Assembly: GCF_034259325.1 (NCBI RefSeq)
Contig: NZ_JAXIVS010000002.1
Coordinates: 434,001 to 498,000 of the forward strand
Length of the DNA: 64,000 nucleotides
Reading direction: 5' to 3'
Source: Hyalangium ruber
GTDB taxonomy: Bacteria > Myxococcota > Myxococcia > Myxococcales > Myxococcaceae
Each line of letters starts with the position of its first letter. Position 1 is the stretch's first letter. Shown here piece by piece: positions 46,385 through 54,842 of this stretch. The position numbers and the translations under genes were made by a program. The notes under the pieces are model-generated. The model worked only from the letters and a program-made list of their open reading frames with translations. It was not told the origin of the DNA and searched no databases.

Positions 46385-47482
46385 CTACCCGCCGGCCTTG
46401 CCGCGCGAGGCCAGCTCGCGCTCCACATAGAGCCGGAGGATGTGCAGGAAGTCCTGCGCATTGGTGACGACACCGAAGGCCTGGTGCGTCCCCCGATCCT
46501 TCAGCTTGTTCACCACGAACTCGGACGAGTCCACGCAGATGGTGGTCAGCTCGCGCAGGCTCCCGTCCGCCTCGGTGACGAAGGAGGGCAGCATGTTGCC
46601 GGTGGCGATGGCGTGCAGCGCCGTGGCGATCATCACCACCAGCGTGGCCTTCTTCGTGTGGCTTCGCATGGCCTCCTGCGCCGCCAGGTTGTCCGTCACC
46701 ACCTCCGGCAGCGGCCCGTCATCCCGAATGGAGCCCGTGAGGACGAAGGGCACCCGGTGCAGCACGCACGCGTGCATGATGCCGTCGCGGACAACGCCCT
46801 GCTCCACTGCCTTGGCGATGGAGCCCGCGGCGCGCACCCGGTTGATGGCGCGCATGTGCAGTCCGTGGCCTCCGGTCGTCGCCTCGCCCGCGCCGCTCAT
46901 GCCCAGCGTGGTGCCGAAGATGGAGGCCTCGATGTCATGCACCGCCACGGCGTTGCCCGCCAGCAGCCCTCCCACGAAGCCGTTGGAGACGAACCACGTC
47001 ATGTCCGCGCGTGCCCGCGAATGCACCAGCGCCGGCCCCGTCACCCACACCGGGTAGCCGCCGCGCTCGCGCTCCTCCACCAACAACCTGGCCATGCGCG
47101 CGTAGTCGACGGGCTTCTCACGCGACACCTCGCTCGTCATGAACTTGAACTCGCCCTCCGCCCCACTCGCCATCCACGAGGCGTGGACGTAGATGCCCTC
47201 GGTGCCGTCCTCGGCCTGTCCCATCGCCACCTGCTCGCCCTGGCGCACGCGGCGCCCCTCGCGCACCCACAGCTCGCCGTCCGCGCTGAGCACCAGCGCC
47301 CCGTCCATGCGTGGCTCGCGCGGCATGCGCCAGCGCCCTCCCACGCGCACGTACGTCGGCAGGTTGGTGGTGGTGAAGAAGCCCTCGGGCAGGACACCGT
47401 CGGCCGGCGCTGGCTCGAAGCGCGCCTCGGGGGACCGCGCGAAGCGCTCAGCGGAGAAGTCGGGATGGGGGATGGTGCTCAC
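46385..47482 (-). CDS. TIGR00300-family protein, likely ornithine cyclodeaminase-type
   Basis: A 365-residue cytoplasmic protein resembling the TIGR00300 (LOR/SDH-like) family. Its stretches S-N-G-F-V-G-G-L-L-A-G-N-A-V-A-V-H-D-I-E, T-G-G-H-G-L-H-M-R-A-I-N-R-V-R, G-I-M-H-A-C-V and F-V-L-T-G-S-I-R-D-D-G-P-L-P-E-V are shared with archaeal ornithine cyclodeaminase and the C-terminal domain of cyanobacterial AgrE/ArgZ, which turn ornithine into proline and ammonia with NAD. Here it stands alone, without an arginine dihydrolase domain. The activity is inferred from family. It lies 25 bp after a zinc-ribbon gene. Confidence 0.8.
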   Translation of the reverse strand: MSTIPHPDFSAERFARSPEARFEPAPADGVLPEGFFTTTNLPTYVRVGGRWRMPREPRMDGALVLSADGELWVREGRRVRQGEQVAMGQAEDGTEGIYVHASWMASGAEGEFKFMTSEVSREKPVDYARMARLLVEERERGGYPVWVTGPALVHSRARADMTWFVSNGFVGGLLAGNAVAVHDIEASIFGTTLGMSGAGEATTGGHGLHMRAINRVRAAGSIAKAVEQGVVRDGIMHACVLHRVPFVLTGSIRDDGPLPEVVTDNLAAQEAMRSHTKKATLVVMIATALHAIATGNMLPSFVTEADGSLRELTTICVDSSEFVVNKLKDRGTHQAFGVVTNAQDFLHILRLYVERELASRGKAGG

Positions 47483-48451: not shown

Positions 48452-49624
48452 ATGCTGGAGACGCGGGCCTGGGTCCTTCATCGCGGTGAGCGGCAGAAGG
48501 AAGGGCAGCCCGTCCCCGCCGAGCTGGTGGAGGAGTCCTTCTCCATCCCCGCGCTCGGCCCGGAGGACGTGCTCGCCGAGCCTCTTTACGGCTGCTGGGA
48601 GGGCAACATGGGGCACGCCCTGCAGCGCGTGCCCGTGGACATCTGCCGCCTGCGCCGCGAGGACAAGGTCGTCATCGGCAACGCCGGCGTGGTGCGCGTA
48701 GTGGAGACGGGCAGCGCCGTCACCCGCGTCCGCGCCGGAGACCACTGCCTGGTGTTCTGCAACGCCGAGCCGGATGAGCATGGCTATCCGGTCAAGGTGC
48801 TGGCCTATGACGCCAGCCACACCATGGGCCTGCTGGCGCGAAAGACGCGACTGCCCCAGCACGTCCTCATTCCCCTGCCGGCCCACAGCCGGCACTCCCT
48901 GAAGCAGTGGGCGGCGTTCTCGCTCCGCTACATCACCGCGTGGTCCAACTGGCGGCTCGCCTACGGCTGCTGGCGCCTGCAGCTCAGCGAGTCGGACTGC
49001 CCGGTCCCCTTCGTGGTGGGCTGGGGCGGCGGCGTCTCCTATGCCCAGCTCCGGCTGGCGAGGCACGCCGGGTGTCGCGTGGCCATGGTCACCTCCCAGG
49101 CGGAGCGGCTGCGGCACCTGGAGTCGGTGGGCATCATCCCCATCGACCGGCGCGAGTTCCCGGACCTGATGCGCGAGCCCGCCCGGTTCGCCTCGGACGC
49201 CGAGTACCGGCGGCGCTACATCCAGTCGGAGAAGCAGTTCCTGGCCCGGGTGAAGGAGGCGGGGCGCGGCCAGGACGTCTCCATCTTCCTCGACCACATC
49301 GGCGCTCCGCTCCTGGAGGCCACCCTCAAGGCGCTGGGCCGCCAGGGCGTGATTGCCACCGCCGGGTGGAAGCTCGGCGCGGAGCTGATCGACCTGTCGC
49401 GCTCCACCGAATGCACCAAGCGCCATCAGCACATCCACACCCACTACGCCCGCTACGCCGAGGCCGTGGCGGCGGTGGGCTTCGCCGAGGAGGCGGGCTG
49501 GCTGCCTCCGGTGGACGATGAGCGCATCTACGCCTGGGAGGAAGTACCGCAGCTCGCGCGCGACTTCGAGCAGGGGCGCGTCGCCTCCTACTTCCCTCTC
49601 TACGCCGTGAACCCCGAGCGCTGA
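48452..49624 (+). CDS. Zn-type MDR dehydrogenase/reductase (first gene of KAS III operon)
   Basis: A 390-residue medium-chain reductase, with GGAGGAG just upstream of ATG 48452. Its N-terminal GroES-like half includes C-W-E-G-N-M-G-H-A-L-Q-R and V-V-I-G-N-A-G-V-V-R-V-V; the Rossmann half has V-G-W-G-G-G-V-S-Y-A-Q-L. It looks distantly like crotonyl-CoA carboxylase/reductase-type and other secondary-metabolite MDR proteins, but I see no complete Zn ligand set. It may reduce an enoyl or keto intermediate of the pathway encoded downstream (inference). It is 8 bp from the next gene. Confidence 0.8.
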   Translation: MLETRAWVLHRGERQKEGQPVPAELVEESFSIPALGPEDVLAEPLYGCWEGNMGHALQRVPVDICRLRREDKVVIGNAGVVRVVETGSAVTRVRAGDHCLVFCNAEPDEHGYPVKVLAYDASHTMGLLARKTRLPQHVLIPLPAHSRHSLKQWAAFSLRYITAWSNWRLAYGCWRLQLSESDCPVPFVVGWGGGVSYAQLRLARHAGCRVAMVTSQAERLRHLESVGIIPIDRREFPDLMREPARFASDAEYRRRYIQSEKQFLARVKEAGRGQDVSIFLDHIGAPLLEATLKALGRQGVIATAGWKLGAELIDLSRSTECTKRHQHIHTHYARYAEAVAAVGFAEEAGWLPPVDDERIYAWEEVPQLARDFEQGRVASYFPLYAVNPER

Positions 49625-49632
49625 GGCCGCCC

Positions 49633-50394
49633 ATGTCCGAGACCCCCGTGGACGCGCTCAGCACCGCGCGGCAGAAGTTCAAGCACCAGTCCCAGGCGTT
49701 CGGCTTCGCGCGGGTCCTCCTCGTGGACCTCATCACGATGACCTTCTCGCTCTCGCCGGGCCTGGTGGCGTGGGCGGCCTTCGTCCTCTTCCTGCGCTGG
49801 AGCTGGGACCGGGCGTGGTTCCCGCTCTGGGCGCTGCTGGCCCCCGGGGTCCTCGCGGGCACGTTCCTGCTCGCGTGCTGGCTCATCCGCCTGTGCATTC
49901 CGCGCATCCGCCCCGGCACCTACAAGATGGAGATGTCCCGGGACTACCTCGCCTGGTACATGACCCTCTGCCTGGGGCACGCGGTGCGCATCTCCGCGCT
50001 CCAGCCGTTCTTCTTCACCTTCTACATCACCAAGTACCTCTACTGGCGGGCGATGGGCGCGCGCATCGCCTACGGGGTGAACTCGTCCCTCTTCGCCGTG
50101 CTGGCGGACTACCCGCTGCTCACCATCGGCAAGGGCTGCACGGTGGGCGCCAACGTCCTCGTCATCGGCCACCTCTTCCTGGGCGACAAAGTGATGTTGG
50201 GCCCGGTGAACATCGGCGACAACGTCTTCCTGAGCTTCGGTGCCTTCGTGGGGCCTCGGACCACCATTGGCGCCAGGAGCTGGATCGGCATGCAGAACAA
50301 GCTCCTGAAGGACACCCTGCCAGAGGACTCGCGCCTCGAGAACTTCGAGTGGGAGCACTTCAACCCGAACCAGAAAAAAGAGCGCCCGTCATGA
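49633..50394 (+). CDS. Membrane-anchored hexapeptide-repeat acyltransferase
   Basis: A 253-residue protein with two N-terminal hydrophobic segments (about 28-85), an amphipathic middle, and a left-handed beta-helix from about 155 (L-L-T-I-G-K-G-C-T-V-G-A-N-V-L-V-I-G-H-L; I-G-D-N-V-F-L; T-T-I-G-A-R-S-W-I-G). The layout resembles the C-terminal acyltransferase part of Pls/PosA-type synthetases. A His in V-I-G-H could be catalytic. It may transfer an ACP-bound acyl chain to an acceptor at the inner membrane. It overlaps the next gene by 4 bp (ATGA). Confidence 0.8.
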   Translation: MSETPVDALSTARQKFKHQSQAFGFARVLLVDLITMTFSLSPGLVAWAAFVLFLRWSWDRAWFPLWALLAPGVLAGTFLLACWLIRLCIPRIRPGTYKMEMSRDYLAWYMTLCLGHAVRISALQPFFFTFYITKYLYWRAMGARIAYGVNSSLFAVLADYPLLTIGKGCTVGANVLVIGHLFLGDKVMLGPVNIGDNVFLSFGAFVGPRTTIGARSWIGMQNKLLKDTLPEDSRLENFEWEHFNPNQKKERPS

Positions 50395-51434
50395 TGACCC
50401 TGGAGCCGCGCCTGAGCGTCCAGGTGCTGGGCCATGGGCGCTCCTGGCCCGGAGCGCGGCCCGTGTCCAATGCCGAGCTGCTCGCGCTCGACCCCGAGCA
50501 GCAGGGCCGCTCTCCCGAAGCATTGGAGGCGCTGGGCCGAAAGCTGACGGCACGGCTGGGCTTCAGTCAGCGCTACCTGGCGCGGCTGCCCAGCTCCGAC
50601 GGCGCCCGTGCGGACGAGGAGACCAGCGAGTCCCTGGCCCTGGCCGCCGCACGGCGGGCCCTCGGGGGACGAAGCGGCGCCGAAGTCGAAGCCTTCATCC
50701 ATGGCACGACGACCACGAGCCGCTACACGGGCTCCCAAGCCGCCGCCATCCTCGGACAGCTCGGCAGCCACGCCGCCGCCTATGAGCTCAAGGCGGGCTG
50801 CTCCACCTCCCTGGCCAGCCTGCACCTGGCGGTAGCGCTGCTGGGCAGCGGCTACGGCAACGTGCTGGTGAGCTGCGCGGAGACTCTCTCCAAGGTGATG
50901 AACCCGGCCCTCAAGGAGACCTGGTTCATCCTCGCCGATGGTGGCGCGTCCGTGTGGCTTCGGCGCGAGGACGTCGCGCCCGACTTCGAGATCCAACGGT
51001 GCCTCTATGCCACCGACGGCAGGCTGGTGGACCTGTACACCACGCCGGGAAAGCTGCCTCCCGACAAGGCCACGCTGGAGCAGTGCGGTTACTGCATGTT
51101 CGGGGACGGTGCGCGGCTCCGGGAGGAGGCGCTGCGGCGCTACCGGGAGATGCTCCAAGCGCTGTTCCCGGACGGGCGCGGCCTGGAGCGGATCCGCTGG
51201 GTGGTGGCCCACCAGATCAACCGCAAGCTCATCGAGCAGGTCTGCCAGGAGAGCGGGCTGAACGCGCGCCTCATCTGGAGCGCGGACCGCTTCGGCAACC
51301 TGGGAGGCACCTCCGTCCTGTTCTCGCTGTCCGAGGCACTGGAGCAGGGCCTGTTCGCACCGGGCGACTCGGTGCTGCTGATGAGCGTGGGCGGTGGCCT
51401 GTCCTTCGCCATGCAGCACTGGGTGAAGCGCTGA
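50391..51434 (+). CDS. Divergent KAS III-family (FabH-like) condensing enzyme
   Basis: A 347-residue thiolase-fold enzyme with the KAS III triad Cys137 (K-A-G-C-S-T-S), His274 (V-A-H-Q-I-N) and Asn303 (F-G-N-L-G-G-T-S). The N-terminus is longer than FabH and the Cys context K-A-G-C is unlike the A-A-C-A-G of true FabH, so the primer or acceptor differs. Relatives include KAS III-like acyltransferases that form C-O or C-C bonds in natural-product pathways. ATG 50391 overlaps the preceding stop; the ACP gene follows after 16 bp. Confidence 0.87.
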   Translation: MMTLEPRLSVQVLGHGRSWPGARPVSNAELLALDPEQQGRSPEALEALGRKLTARLGFSQRYLARLPSSDGARADEETSESLALAAARRALGGRSGAEVEAFIHGTTTTSRYTGSQAAAILGQLGSHAAAYELKAGCSTSLASLHLAVALLGSGYGNVLVSCAETLSKVMNPALKETWFILADGGASVWLRREDVAPDFEIQRCLYATDGRLVDLYTTPGKLPPDKATLEQCGYCMFGDGARLREEALRRYREMLQALFPDGRGLERIRWVVAHQINRKLIEQVCQESGLNARLIWSADRFGNLGGTSVLFSLSEALEQGLFAPGDSVLLMSVGGGLSFAMQHWVKR

Positions 51435-51450
51435 AAGGGTGGAGCGAGAC

Positions 51451-51687
51451 ATGGAGCTGCTGGAACGAATCGGCAAGGCGCTGCGCGTCGCGGGCATGGC
51501 GGAGCTTCCCTCCAGCCCGTCCGAGGAGCTGGCCACCTACGGCATGGACAGCCTGATGATGGTGCTCACCGTGGCGGCCCTGGAGAAGGAGTTCTCGCTG
51601 CGCATCTCCGGTCGTGACTTCTCCGAGGAGGTCTTCCGGGATCTCGACTCGCTGGCGGGCTGGCTGCGGCGGCTGGGCGTGTCATGA
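51451..51687 (+). CDS. Acyl carrier protein
   Basis: A 78-residue ACP with the 4'-phosphopantetheine site Ser34 in T-Y-G-M-D-S-L-M-M and a typical acidic four-helix pattern. ATG 51451 has GGAG six bases upstream; a GTG 12 bp earlier is less likely. It is the only carrier protein in the operon, so intermediates of both KAS III enzymes and the SDR probably ride on it. It overlaps the SDR gene by 4 bp. Confidence 0.92.
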   Translation: MELLERIGKALRVAGMAELPSSPSEELATYGMDSLMMVLTVAALEKEFSLRISGRDFSEEVFRDLDSLAGWLRRLGVS

Positions 51688-52439
51688 GGGTGCTCATCAC
51701 CGGAGGCAGCTCCGACATCGGGCGCTCCATCGCCCGCCGTCGGCTGGCGCTGGGAGACGAGGTGGTTGTCACCGCCTCCTCGGAGCAGTCCCTGGAGGAG
51801 ACGCTGGCCCGCTACCGCGCGGAAGGGCTGGAGGTGCGCGGGGTGGTGTTGGACCTCGCGGCGCCCGCCGCCAGTGAACCGGCGCTCGCGCGGCTGCTAG
51901 AGCAGGGCCTCCAGGGGCTGGTGCTGAACGCGTGGACTCGGCGGCCGCCCCTCTACCGCTTCCACGAGCTGCCCCAGGAGGCGCTCGAGGCGGACGTCAC
52001 CGCCAACCTCATGGGCAACCTCTGGCTGCTGCGCCGGGTGCTGCCCTCGATGGTGGAGGCCCGCTGGGGCCGCATCGTCTTCATCTCCAGCATCTCCACC
52101 GTCAACGGCGCGGGGCGCTACGGCGCCTATGTCCTGTGCAAGTCCGCGCTGGAGGGGCTGATGCGCAACCTCGCGGTGGACTACGGCGCCTTCAACGTCC
52201 TGTCCAACACCGTGCGGCTGGGCATCTTCAAGACGGAGCGGACGAAGAAGTACTGGTCCCGGCAGCGCTACGTGGAGCGGATGAGCGCCGTCATTCCCCA
52301 GGGCGAGTTCGGCTCCCCCGAGCACGTGGGCGAGGTGCTGGACCCGCTGCTCTCCGCGCACGCGTACACCAACGGCGCGGTGTTGGACGTCACCGGCGGT
52401 CTCCCGATGTTCCGGATGGAAGGAGTGTTGCGACCATGA
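51684..52439 (+). CDS. SDR family reductase (FabG-like)
   Basis: A 251-residue short-chain dehydrogenase: cofactor motif T-G-G-S-S-D-I-G (7-13), N-A-W-T in place of the usual N-N-A-G, Ser136 and Tyr149-x-x-x-Lys153 in the active site. Reduction of a 3-ketoacyl-ACP made by one of the KAS III enzymes is the natural guess. It is overlapped by 4 bp on both sides (ATGA), so it is tightly coupled to the ACP and the second KAS III. Confidence 0.88.
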   Translation: MRVLITGGSSDIGRSIARRRLALGDEVVVTASSEQSLEETLARYRAEGLEVRGVVLDLAAPAASEPALARLLEQGLQGLVLNAWTRRPPLYRFHELPQEALEADVTANLMGNLWLLRRVLPSMVEARWGRIVFISSISTVNGAGRYGAYVLCKSALEGLMRNLAVDYGAFNVLSNTVRLGIFKTERTKKYWSRQRYVERMSAVIPQGEFGSPEHVGEVLDPLLSAHAYTNGAVLDVTGGLPMFRMEGVLRP

Positions 52440-53446
52440 GCTTCCTGCGCCCTACGGAGCCGGTATACCTGCTCGGCCCCAAGTCCTGGCTGCCCGAGCG
52501 CGTCGTCACCAACCAGGACGTGCTCGACTGGATGGGGACTCGCGCGCGTCCCAGCTGGATTACCCACCGCACGGGCGTCGAGCAGCGGCGCTGGGTCGCC
52601 GAGGAGCAGGCCTGCAGCGATGTCGCCGCCGCCGCGGCCTCTCGCCTGCTGGAGGACTACCGCATCGACCGGGAGCGCATCGCCCAGCTCCTGCTGGCCA
52701 CCGTGTCCGGCGACTACCCCACCCCGCCCACCTCGCCCCTGGTCCTCCCCAAGCTGGGGCTCGATCGCGTCGGTGTGCTGGACCTGAGCGCCGCCTGCGC
52801 CGGCTTCACCAGCGCCGTCCACATGGGCGCGGCGCTCACGGCGGCCACTGGTAGCGATCAGCTCGTCATCGCCGCCGATATCCGCTCCAAGTTCCTCAAC
52901 CGCGAGGACCTGGCGACCACCGCCCTGTTCGGCGACGGCGGCGCGAGCTGCCTGGTGTCCAGACTCCCCGAGCAGGCGGACTTCCAGTTCGTGGCGAGCG
53001 AGCTGGCGGCTGACCCTTCCATGGCCGACATCATCGCTATCCGCGCCGGTGGCTCCCGGCTGCCGCATCACCAGAACCCGGACCCCACGAAGGTCTTTCT
53101 CAAGATGGAGCACGGGGCCACGCTGTTCATGAAGGGCGTGGACAACATGTCCAACGGCGCCACCTCGCTCCTGCGCCGCCTGGAGATGACCGTGGACGAT
53201 GTGGACTGGTTCGTCCCCCACCAGGCCAACCTGCACCTCATCCGCGCGGTGACCGACAAGCTGGGCGCGGACCGCGCCAAGGTGGTGGAGACGGTGCAGT
53301 TCACCGGCAACACCTCAGGCGCCAGCGTGGGCATCGCGCTCTCGCACCTCAAGGAGCACCTGCCGCTGCGCCCAGGGCAGAGCGTCCTGTTGATCTCCGC
53401 GGGCGCGGGTGGGGCCTCCGCCTGCGCGCTGCTGCGGAGCCTGTAA
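52436..53446 (+). CDS. KAS III-family (FabH-like) condensing enzyme
   Basis: A 336-residue beta-ketoacyl synthase III with canonical residues: Cys121 (S-A-A-C-A-G-F), His262 (V-P-H-Q-A-N) and Asn292 (F-T-G-N-T-S). It is closer to housekeeping FabH than the divergent copy upstream. In the pathway it could prime or extend the ACP-bound chain. The start overlaps the SDR stop. It is the last plus-strand gene of the cluster; 19 bp separate it from the convergent ligase gene. Confidence 0.9.
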   Translation: MSFLRPTEPVYLLGPKSWLPERVVTNQDVLDWMGTRARPSWITHRTGVEQRRWVAEEQACSDVAAAAASRLLEDYRIDRERIAQLLLATVSGDYPTPPTSPLVLPKLGLDRVGVLDLSAACAGFTSAVHMGAALTAATGSDQLVIAADIRSKFLNREDLATTALFGDGGASCLVSRLPEQADFQFVASELAADPSMADIIAIRAGGSRLPHHQNPDPTKVFLKMEHGATLFMKGVDNMSNGATSLLRRLEMTVDDVDWFVPHQANLHLIRAVTDKLGADRAKVVETVQFTGNTSGASVGIALSHLKEHLPLRPGQSVLLISAGAGGASACALLRSL

Positions 53447-53465
53447 CTTCCAGGAGCGGCGGCCC

Positions 53466-54842
53466 TCAGTTGATGCGCTGCTCGGGCTGCAGCGCCTCCA
53501 CGAGGCGGGCACGCTGCAGCTTTCCGTTCGAGGTCCGGGGCAACTGTTCCACCCGGTAGAACTCGGTGGGAATCTTGTGCGGGGACAGGCTGCCACGCAG
53601 CGTCTGCCGCAGCTCGCGCTTGGCAGGGCATGAGCTCGAGGGTCGAAGCTGGAGGAAGGCCGTGAGCGTGGTCCCATACAGCGGGTCCTCCTGCCCCCAG
53701 ACGGCGGCGTCCTCCACGCCCGGCAGCTCACGCAGCGCCGCTTCGATCTCGAACGGGCTCAGACGCTCGCCCCCTACCTTGAGCAAGTCGTCATTGCGGC
53801 CCAGGAGCGTCACCAGGCCGTCGGGTCCCAGCTCCGCGATGTCTCCGGTGCGCAACCACCCATCCTCGACCTTCTCGCGCGTGGCCTCGGGGGCTCCGAG
53901 ATAGCCCAGCATCACCTGTTCGCCTCGCACGCAGAGCTCGCCCTCGCCCGTGAGCTTCACGGCCAGGGTGCCCACGGGAAAGCCGGTGGCGCTGCTCAGG
54001 AAGGCGGGATGATCGCTGCGCAGACACAGCACGCGCGGCGACAGTTCCGTCTGGCCGTAGTTCGTATAGATGCGGCTCGCGGGAAACGCCTGCAACAGGC
54101 GCTGGCGCAGGGGAAGGCTCAGCGCCGCGCCGGCCGAGACCACATGTGTCACTCCCTGGGTACCCTCAGGCCCGGCGCCCAGCAAGCGCAGCAGCGCCTC
54201 ATAGTGGGAGGGAACGCCGCTGATCATCCCCACCAGCTTCCCCTCTTCCAGCAGCGCCTTGAGCTCCACCAGGTTGCCGAGCAGCGTGGTGGGAAGGCCC
54301 GCCGACAGCGCCGGGAGCAACTGTCCCAGCAGCCCGAAGGAGTACGAGAGCGGAAGGAAGAGGGTCTGCATGGGCGCCGCGGCGAAGTCCAGGGAGGCCA
54401 GGACCGCGGCCACGTTCGCCTCGATGTTCCGCCGCGAGAGCTGCACCGCGCGCGGAGCCCCCGTGCTCCCGGAGGTGAACAGCACGAGCGCCGTGTCCGG
54501 GTGGTGCTGGGTCACTCCGGACACACTGCGCCACCCGCTGGTCAAGGATTCATTCAGCTCGAAGCAACACCCCAGCCCCTTCCGCCTTACCTCCACCTCC
54601 GTGGAGGTCCACTCCGGCGCGAACACGGCCAGGGGAATGCCCGCTTCATAGAGGGCCAGGAAGCTGGCGATGAACGCCCGGCTCCGGTGGGCGCGCAGGA
54701 TGGCCACTCCCGGGGGCAGTCCCGCGAGGCGGGCCTTGCGCTCCTCGACCTCCTGCCGCAGGGCTTCGAAGGAGACCGCCTCGGTGCCGAGAAGAAGAGC
54801 TGTCGCGGCATCTGCTCGGGTGAATGCGTACACGGCGCTCAT
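53466..54842 (-). CDS. Acyl/aryl-AMP ligase (ANL superfamily)
   Basis: A 458-residue adenylate-forming enzyme: P-loop L-F-T-S-G-S-T-G-A-P (123-128 core), T-N-Y-G-Q-T-E, G-W-L-R-T-G-D, G-R-N-D-D-L-L-K-V-G-G-E-R and the catalytic Lys441 in R-T-S-N-G-K-L. It is shorter than typical acyl-CoA synthetases. It could load a free acid onto the operon's ACP (acyl-ACP ligase) or CoA. It is convergent with the KAS III operon, with its own promoter region at 54843-55019, so it may be regulated separately. Substrate unknown. Confidence 0.9.
   Translation of the reverse strand: MSAVYAFTRADAATALLLGTEAVSFEALRQEVEERKARLAGLPPGVAILRAHRSRAFIASFLALYEAGIPLAVFAPEWTSTEVEVRRKGLGCCFELNESLTSGWRSVSGVTQHHPDTALVLFTSGSTGAPRAVQLSRRNIEANVAAVLASLDFAAAPMQTLFLPLSYSFGLLGQLLPALSAGLPTTLLGNLVELKALLEEGKLVGMISGVPSHYEALLRLLGAGPEGTQGVTHVVSAGAALSLPLRQRLLQAFPASRIYTNYGQTELSPRVLCLRSDHPAFLSSATGFPVGTLAVKLTGEGELCVRGEQVMLGYLGAPEATREKVEDGWLRTGDIAELGPDGLVTLLGRNDDLLKVGGERLSPFEIEAALRELPGVEDAAVWGQEDPLYGTTLTAFLQLRPSSSCPAKRELRQTLRGSLSPHKIPTEFYRVEQLPRTSNGKLQRARLVEALQPEQRIN

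Follow-up and report, generated by a model that had tools for sequence, protein, structure and literature searches.

We analyzed a window of 64,000 nt from Hyalangium ruber (Myxococcaceae; genome size, 10.8 Mb), covering positions 434,001 to 498,000 of contig NZ_JAXIVS010000002.1. Six of its genes follow one another closely on the plus strand. They encode an MDR-family reductase of 390 amino acids (48452 to 49624; Pfam ADH_zinc_N); a membrane-anchored acyltransferase of the left-handed β-helix (LbH, hexapeptide) type with 253 amino acids (49633 to 50394; Pfam Hexapep); a KASIII condensing enzyme of a divergent clade, here KS1 (50391 to 51434; Pfam ACP_syn_III and ACP_syn_III_C); an ACP that carries the phosphopantetheine serine in a DSL motif (51451 to 51687; Pfam PP-binding); a FabG-type SDR, or ketoreductase, with a YxxxK motif (51684 to 52439; Pfam adh_short); and a second, FabH/BioZ-like KASIII enzyme, KS2 (52436 to 53446). 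A seventh gene, on the minus strand, encodes a short adenylate-forming (ANL) ligase of 458 amino acids (53466 to 54842; Pfam AMP-binding and AMP-binding_C). Pfam and NCBIfam agree with the domain identities that the original prediction had assigned to all seven genes. The seven-gene unit stays intact in at least 11 species of myxobacteria, and it very probably makes and passes on a small acyl chain of fatty or polyketide-like type.

The plus-strand genes had been described as lying no more than 16 bp apart, with three ATGA junctions, and this is confirmed from the open reading frames and the sequence. The MDR and LbH genes are separated by 8 bp and the KS1 and ACP genes by 16 bp, while the LbH-KS1, ACP-SDR, and SDR-KS2 junctions are 4-bp ATGA overlaps. 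The stops of KS2 and the convergent ANL gene are 19 bp apart. For the ACP, a second open start codon exists (GTG at 51439), although the ATG at 51451 is most likely the translation start because all seven relatives checked begin at the equivalent position. The upstream neighbor, which lies outside the unit (46385 to 47482, minus strand), encodes an ArgZ-like arginine dihydrolase C-terminal region (PF21570 and PF21571).

Results

The same seven genes, in the order MDR-LbH-KS1-ACP-SDR-KS2-ANL, are found by tblastn in 10 further species of Myxococcus and Pyxidicoccus, with about 69 to 90% protein identity. Six of these are Pyxidicoccus caerfyrddinensis, Pyxidicoccus fallax, Myxococcus qinghaiensis, Myxococcus llanfairpwllgwyngyll..., Myxococcus eversor, and Myxococcus dinghuensis. 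All KS1 homologs with 75 to 84% identity come from this one genus group (10 of the 144 other genomes searched within the order). We defined the window-type operon by this gene order, with neighbors that overlap or lie no more than about 25 bp apart. It is present in 11 genomes by tblastn, with junction gaps measured in seven relatives, and the window deviates solely in the strand of its ANL gene. The convergent ANL gene that had been noted is thus real in the window, but it is not the typical layout: ANL is the co-linear last gene of the operon in all 10 relatives and is inverted in place in the window alone. In two relatives (L021 and L026), the KS2-ANL junction is itself an ATGA overlap. With the ANL gene (53466 to 54842) inverted, its expression in the window strain would no longer be coupled to that of the operon.

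Substantial flanking DNA is common solely within two groups of copies (L022/L023/L024 and L026/L105). Therefore, the 11 copies occupy eight chromosomal settings, and the unit has sharp borders, at the MDR and ANL genes. Scanned flanking genes of different copies are unrelated to one another. We find that purifying selection acts on all seven genes (dN/dS, 0.17 to 0.36 for each; window versus L021). With the order kept in 10 further genomes and this constraint on each gene, the grouping exceeds chance.

Both condensing enzymes have the ACP_syn_III domains and the intact Cys-His-Asn triad typical of decarboxylative KASIII enzymes (C137/H274/N303 in KS1; C121/H262/N292 in KS2), and both belong by sequence to the FabH/BioZ family. 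KS1 differs from that family in lacking the CoA-site Trp and in forming its own clade, which unites the 12 KS1 sequences with support of 100/96. Four loci from the KS1 search (L027, L028, L065, and L066) were left out, as the tree placed them among generic FabH-like genes. In the same tree, a single clade for KS2 was neither rejected nor shown. The CoA-site Trp and Arg of FabH, both absent from KS1, are kept in KS2, where the Trp is residue 41. Searches of a plasmid collection returned generic FabH matches alone for KS1 and one weak match for LbH.

The nearest solved relative of KS2 is BioZ, whose triad (C115-H255-N285) corresponds to that of KS2. BioZ holds the carboxylate of its glutaryl primer with S84, R147, and S287. 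These correspond to V90, F153, and S294 in KS2, so a dicarboxylic primer is unlikely for KS2 because two of the three residues are replaced. We reject an identity of KS2 as a BioZ (3-oxopimeloyl-ACP synthase) on V90 and F153.

The MDR has GNA in place of the zinc-ligand GHE motif of alcohol dehydrogenases. Its best solved relative is a putative crotonyl-CoA reductase (9kva), and it resembles crotonyl-CoA reductase/carboxylase weakly over nearly its full length, including a conserved C-terminal His region. However, its score against the NCBIfam model for crotonyl-CoA carboxylase/reductase (crot-CoA-red, TIGR01751) is 62.9 bits, far below the curated cut-off of 378 bits, and it belongs to a subfamily of its own that is found in PKS and NRPS settings. 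Full-length homologs with 43 to 48% identity occur in Burkholderia, Embleya, and Azospirillum (43 to 49% when those of other Myxococcaceae are included). The Azospirillum homolog is part of a PKS-KASIII-ACP-MDR-ANL cluster, and that of Embleya adjoins a megasynthase with an N-terminal adenylating domain. In other Myxococcaceae, MDR paralogs lie beside or inside PKS or NRPS clusters. Because homologs adjoin PKS, NRPS, and other carrier-protein assembly genes, the best inference is that the MDR acts as a reductase for carrier-bound chains. The AlphaFold model of the MDR is too poor to judge fold or pocket (mean pLDDT, 40).

Some of these paralogs have settings of their own. In three genomes (G110, G055, and G102; loci L100, L101, and L104), a second MDR lies in a small NRPS cluster that also encodes an acyl-CoA dehydrogenase and stand-alone adenylation and carrier proteins; two of the three clusters also have a B12 radical-SAM-type gene. 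They look like a starter pathway of the pyrrole-carboxylate type. In two others (G120 and G078; loci L102 and L103), a large PKS gene flanks the MDR on each side; the first of the two ends in a thioesterase.

The SDR is a classical FabG-type enzyme (adh_short, 111 bits; NCBIfam FabG subfamily, 133 bits). The ANL ligase aligns with the core motifs of its family and has the catalytic A10 lysine.

The LbH protein begins with hydrophobic helices and matches Pfam Hexapep at 28.9 bits (cut-off, 27). In NCBIfam, residues 59 to 233 resemble the terminal domain of Pls/PosA-type NRPSs (TIGR02353), with weak similarity to LpxD and NeuD/PglB/VioB. As in that terminal domain, transmembrane helices are followed by a left-handed β-helix, although the HMM match is weak and the LbH protein stands alone at 253 amino acids, without NRPS modules. 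The AlphaFold model (mean pLDDT, 47) is too poor to confirm the helix. All aligned LbH homologs associated with KS1 keep H180, a candidate catalytic histidine. Across the phylum sample, an LbH profile detects 15 genomes; KS1 is also present in 14 of these. This co-occurrence has a Fisher P of about 2e-17 by genome and about 8e-6 by genus overlap, neither corrected for ancestry. In the 15th genome (G161, L107), KS1 has no match, H180 is absent from the LbH protein, and the LbH gene adjoins an exporter-like gene (RND/MMPL-like, read by eye).

A KS1 profile identifies six additional Myxococcota genomes that score above every generic FabH. In these distant genomes, KS1, KS2, ANL, ACP, SDR, and membrane LbH genes appear in different orders, and FAAL and exporter genes replace the MDR. 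G006 (L033) has KS1-ANL-ACP-KS2, an SDR, a membrane LbH, a second ACP, a FAAL, a FUSC exporter, a P450, and an MFS gene. G182 (L064) has KS1-ANL-ACP-KS2 with overlaps, an SDR, an MFS gene, a second ACP, a carboxyltransferase-like open reading frame, a FAAL, and a fatty-acid hydroxylase. Two contigs of G008 (L061 and L108) together hold KS1-ANL-KS2, an SDR, an LbH, an ACP, and a FAAL. The genes of G128 are likewise split over two contigs, one with LbH-KS1-KS2 and a small two-gene insertion (L063), the other with ACP, LbH, ANL, FAAL, and MFS genes (L109). G090 (L032) has KS1, ANL, SDR, and MFS genes. G155 (L062) has KS1-KS2 with an MFS gene and a GH3-family gene; neither an ANL nor an ACP gene was identified beside this pair. 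The neighborhood is thus conserved strictly in the 11 Myxococcaceae genomes and loosely in other Myxococcota.

Two further observations concern these distant clusters. The insertion between KS1 and KS2 in G128 (L063, 9380 to 10035) is a toxin-antitoxin-like pair, ribbon-helix-helix-like and PIN-like when read by eye. The KS2 Trp is also absent in the three distant clusters aligned. FAAL enzymes hand acyl-AMP to a carrier protein. An ACP-bound rather than a CoA-bound primer might therefore suit KS2 in the Trp-less clusters, which fits because a FAAL is present in those clusters or their genomes.

Discussion

We propose, with a probability of roughly 0.45, that the unit encodes a self-contained type II (discrete-enzyme) pathway, in which a short reduced acyl chain is assembled on its own ACP and passed on at the membrane. 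From the gene set and its order, conservation, catalytic motifs, selection, and co-occurrence, we infer the reaction steps and their order of action, as well as the kind of substrate and acceptor. The ANL ligase would adenylate a starter carboxylic acid and load it onto CoA or the ACP. KS2 would take a CoA-bound primer, because the FabH CoA-site tryptophan is kept, and condense it with malonyl-ACP borrowed from the fatty-acid synthesis of the cell. The SDR would then reduce the β-keto group to give β-hydroxyacyl-ACP, and saturation would follow through a host dehydratase and the MDR as enoyl-thioester reductase. The unit has no dehydratase, and thus full reduction requires host enzymes. KS1, without the tryptophan, may carry out a second, carrier-primed condensation; a single condensation does not explain the need for two KASIII enzymes. 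Last, the membrane LbH acyltransferase would take the completed chain off the ACP and pass it to a hydroxyl or amine acceptor. This pathway is supported by the intact Cys-His-Asn triads, the ACP serine, the SDR YxxxK, and the ANL motifs with their catalytic lysine. It is also supported by the domain assignments, by the seven-gene order in 11 genomes and eight settings, by the translational coupling of ANL in two relatives, by the purifying selection on each gene, by the wider clusters that hold KS1, KS2, ANL, ACP, SDR, and LbH together, by the co-occurrence of LbH with KS1, and by the carrier-protein assembly lines that adjoin MDR homologs elsewhere. Against it speak G155, where neither ANL nor ACP was identified beside KS1-KS2, and the split of the G128 genes over two contigs.

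The nearest competitor is a β-hydroxyacyl donor pathway serving a glycan or lipid. KS and SDR activity could yield an (R)-3-hydroxyacyl-ACP, whose acyl group LbH would attach to a sugar or to the head group of a lipid, in the manner of LpxA/LpxD or VioB-type N-acyltransferases; in lipid A synthesis, 3-hydroxyacyl-ACP is the donor for LbH acyltransferases. This reading is a special case of the main pathway, in which the MDR and KS1 merely adjust the chain. The membrane anchor of LbH, its co-occurrence with KS1, and its weak NCBIfam similarities to LpxD and NeuD/PglB/VioB speak for it. However, LbH is nearest to Pls/PosA terminal domains rather than to LpxA/D, and the subset of flanking genes inspected contains no glycosyltransferase or sugar-nucleotide genes. 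We regard such a donor pathway as unlikely overall, although such transfer of a hydroxyacyl chain is a serious alternative as the end point. A role in supplying an unusual starter or extender unit to a PKS or NRPS elsewhere in the genome, as in crotonyl-CoA carboxylase/reductase clusters, appears improbable. Sets of KASIII, SDR, and CCR genes do supply extender units in known clusters, and the MDR is CCR-like by sequence. Yet the unit includes a dedicated ACP and a membrane acyltransferase, and it occupies eight different settings with no adjoining PKS or NRPS in the flanks inspected.

Among known systems, the OleACD, lipstatin (LstABCD), and nocardiolactone pathways offer the most tempting parallel. 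In these, two fatty acyl chains undergo a head-to-head (nondecarboxylative) Claisen condensation, after which the product is ketoreduced and an ANL enzyme forms a β-lactone. The Lst and nocardiolactone sets combine a pair of KASIII-type enzymes with an ANL and an SDR, a complement that the unit matches. Clusters with oleACD and without oleB make β-lactones, LstA and LstB form a heterodimer, and OleA has a Glu117, followed by Pro, that is essential for head-to-head chemistry (PMC7064751). With either KS1 or KS2, structures of OleA give much lower scores than those of FabH or BioZ. At the positions equivalent to Glu117-Pro, placed via FabH Phe87 by what we take to be the OleA-FabH correspondence, KS1 has Thr113-Gly and KS2 has Thr96-Pro, and no aligned relative has a Glu. 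We therefore reject an OleA/Lst identity for KS1 and KS2 on these hallmark residues. OleD is an extended SDR of the 3-β-HSD type, whereas the window SDR is of the classical FabG type. In contrast to OleABCD, Lst, and nocardiolactone clusters, the unit also adds an MDR, a membrane LbH, and a dedicated ACP, which is not part of Ole pathways. Head-to-head chemistry is thus a doubtful account of the locus. Synthesis of mycolate-like α-alkyl-β-hydroxy fatty acids seems more doubtful still. In the mycolate route, FadD32, AccD4, Pks13, and CmrA act as FAAL, acyl-CoA carboxyltransferase, ACP/condensing enzyme, and SDR, respectively. Two distant loci (L064 and L109) have a FAAL, a carboxyltransferase-like open reading frame (by eye), and an ACP, and two more (L033 and L108) have a FAAL and an ACP. 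The window-type unit, however, has neither FAAL nor carboxyltransferase and includes an MDR, which is absent from the mycolate route. A condensation of this kind suits the FAAL branch more than it does the window.

We tentatively suggest that the KS1/KS2 pair with ANL, ACP, SDR, and membrane LbH represents a stand-alone pathway for acyl assembly and transfer, of a class not described before, that is spread over Myxococcota. The class would have two branches, one with FAAL/carboxyltransferase and one with the MDR, and would make a new kind of lipid or signal. The enzymes are all from known families, and their logic is that of discrete fatty-acid-like assembly. We found no described cluster with this gene set in the PDB, NCBIfam, or the open-access literature. 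Together with the conserved neighborhood, this supports the original prediction of a compact, uncharacterized acyl-assembly locus, and the identity of the acyl chain seems unreported so far. The unit is small, sharply bounded, relocating, and conserved in Myxococcus and Pyxidicoccus, which are well-studied producers of natural products. It may be overlooked by rule-based mining, which seeks the modular PKS and NRPS genes that it lacks. With seven genes on about 6.4 kb, it can easily be deleted or expressed, making its product directly testable.

The genome that contains the window also has a further KASIII gene near an ANL-type gene (L069; C2, about 773.6 kb).
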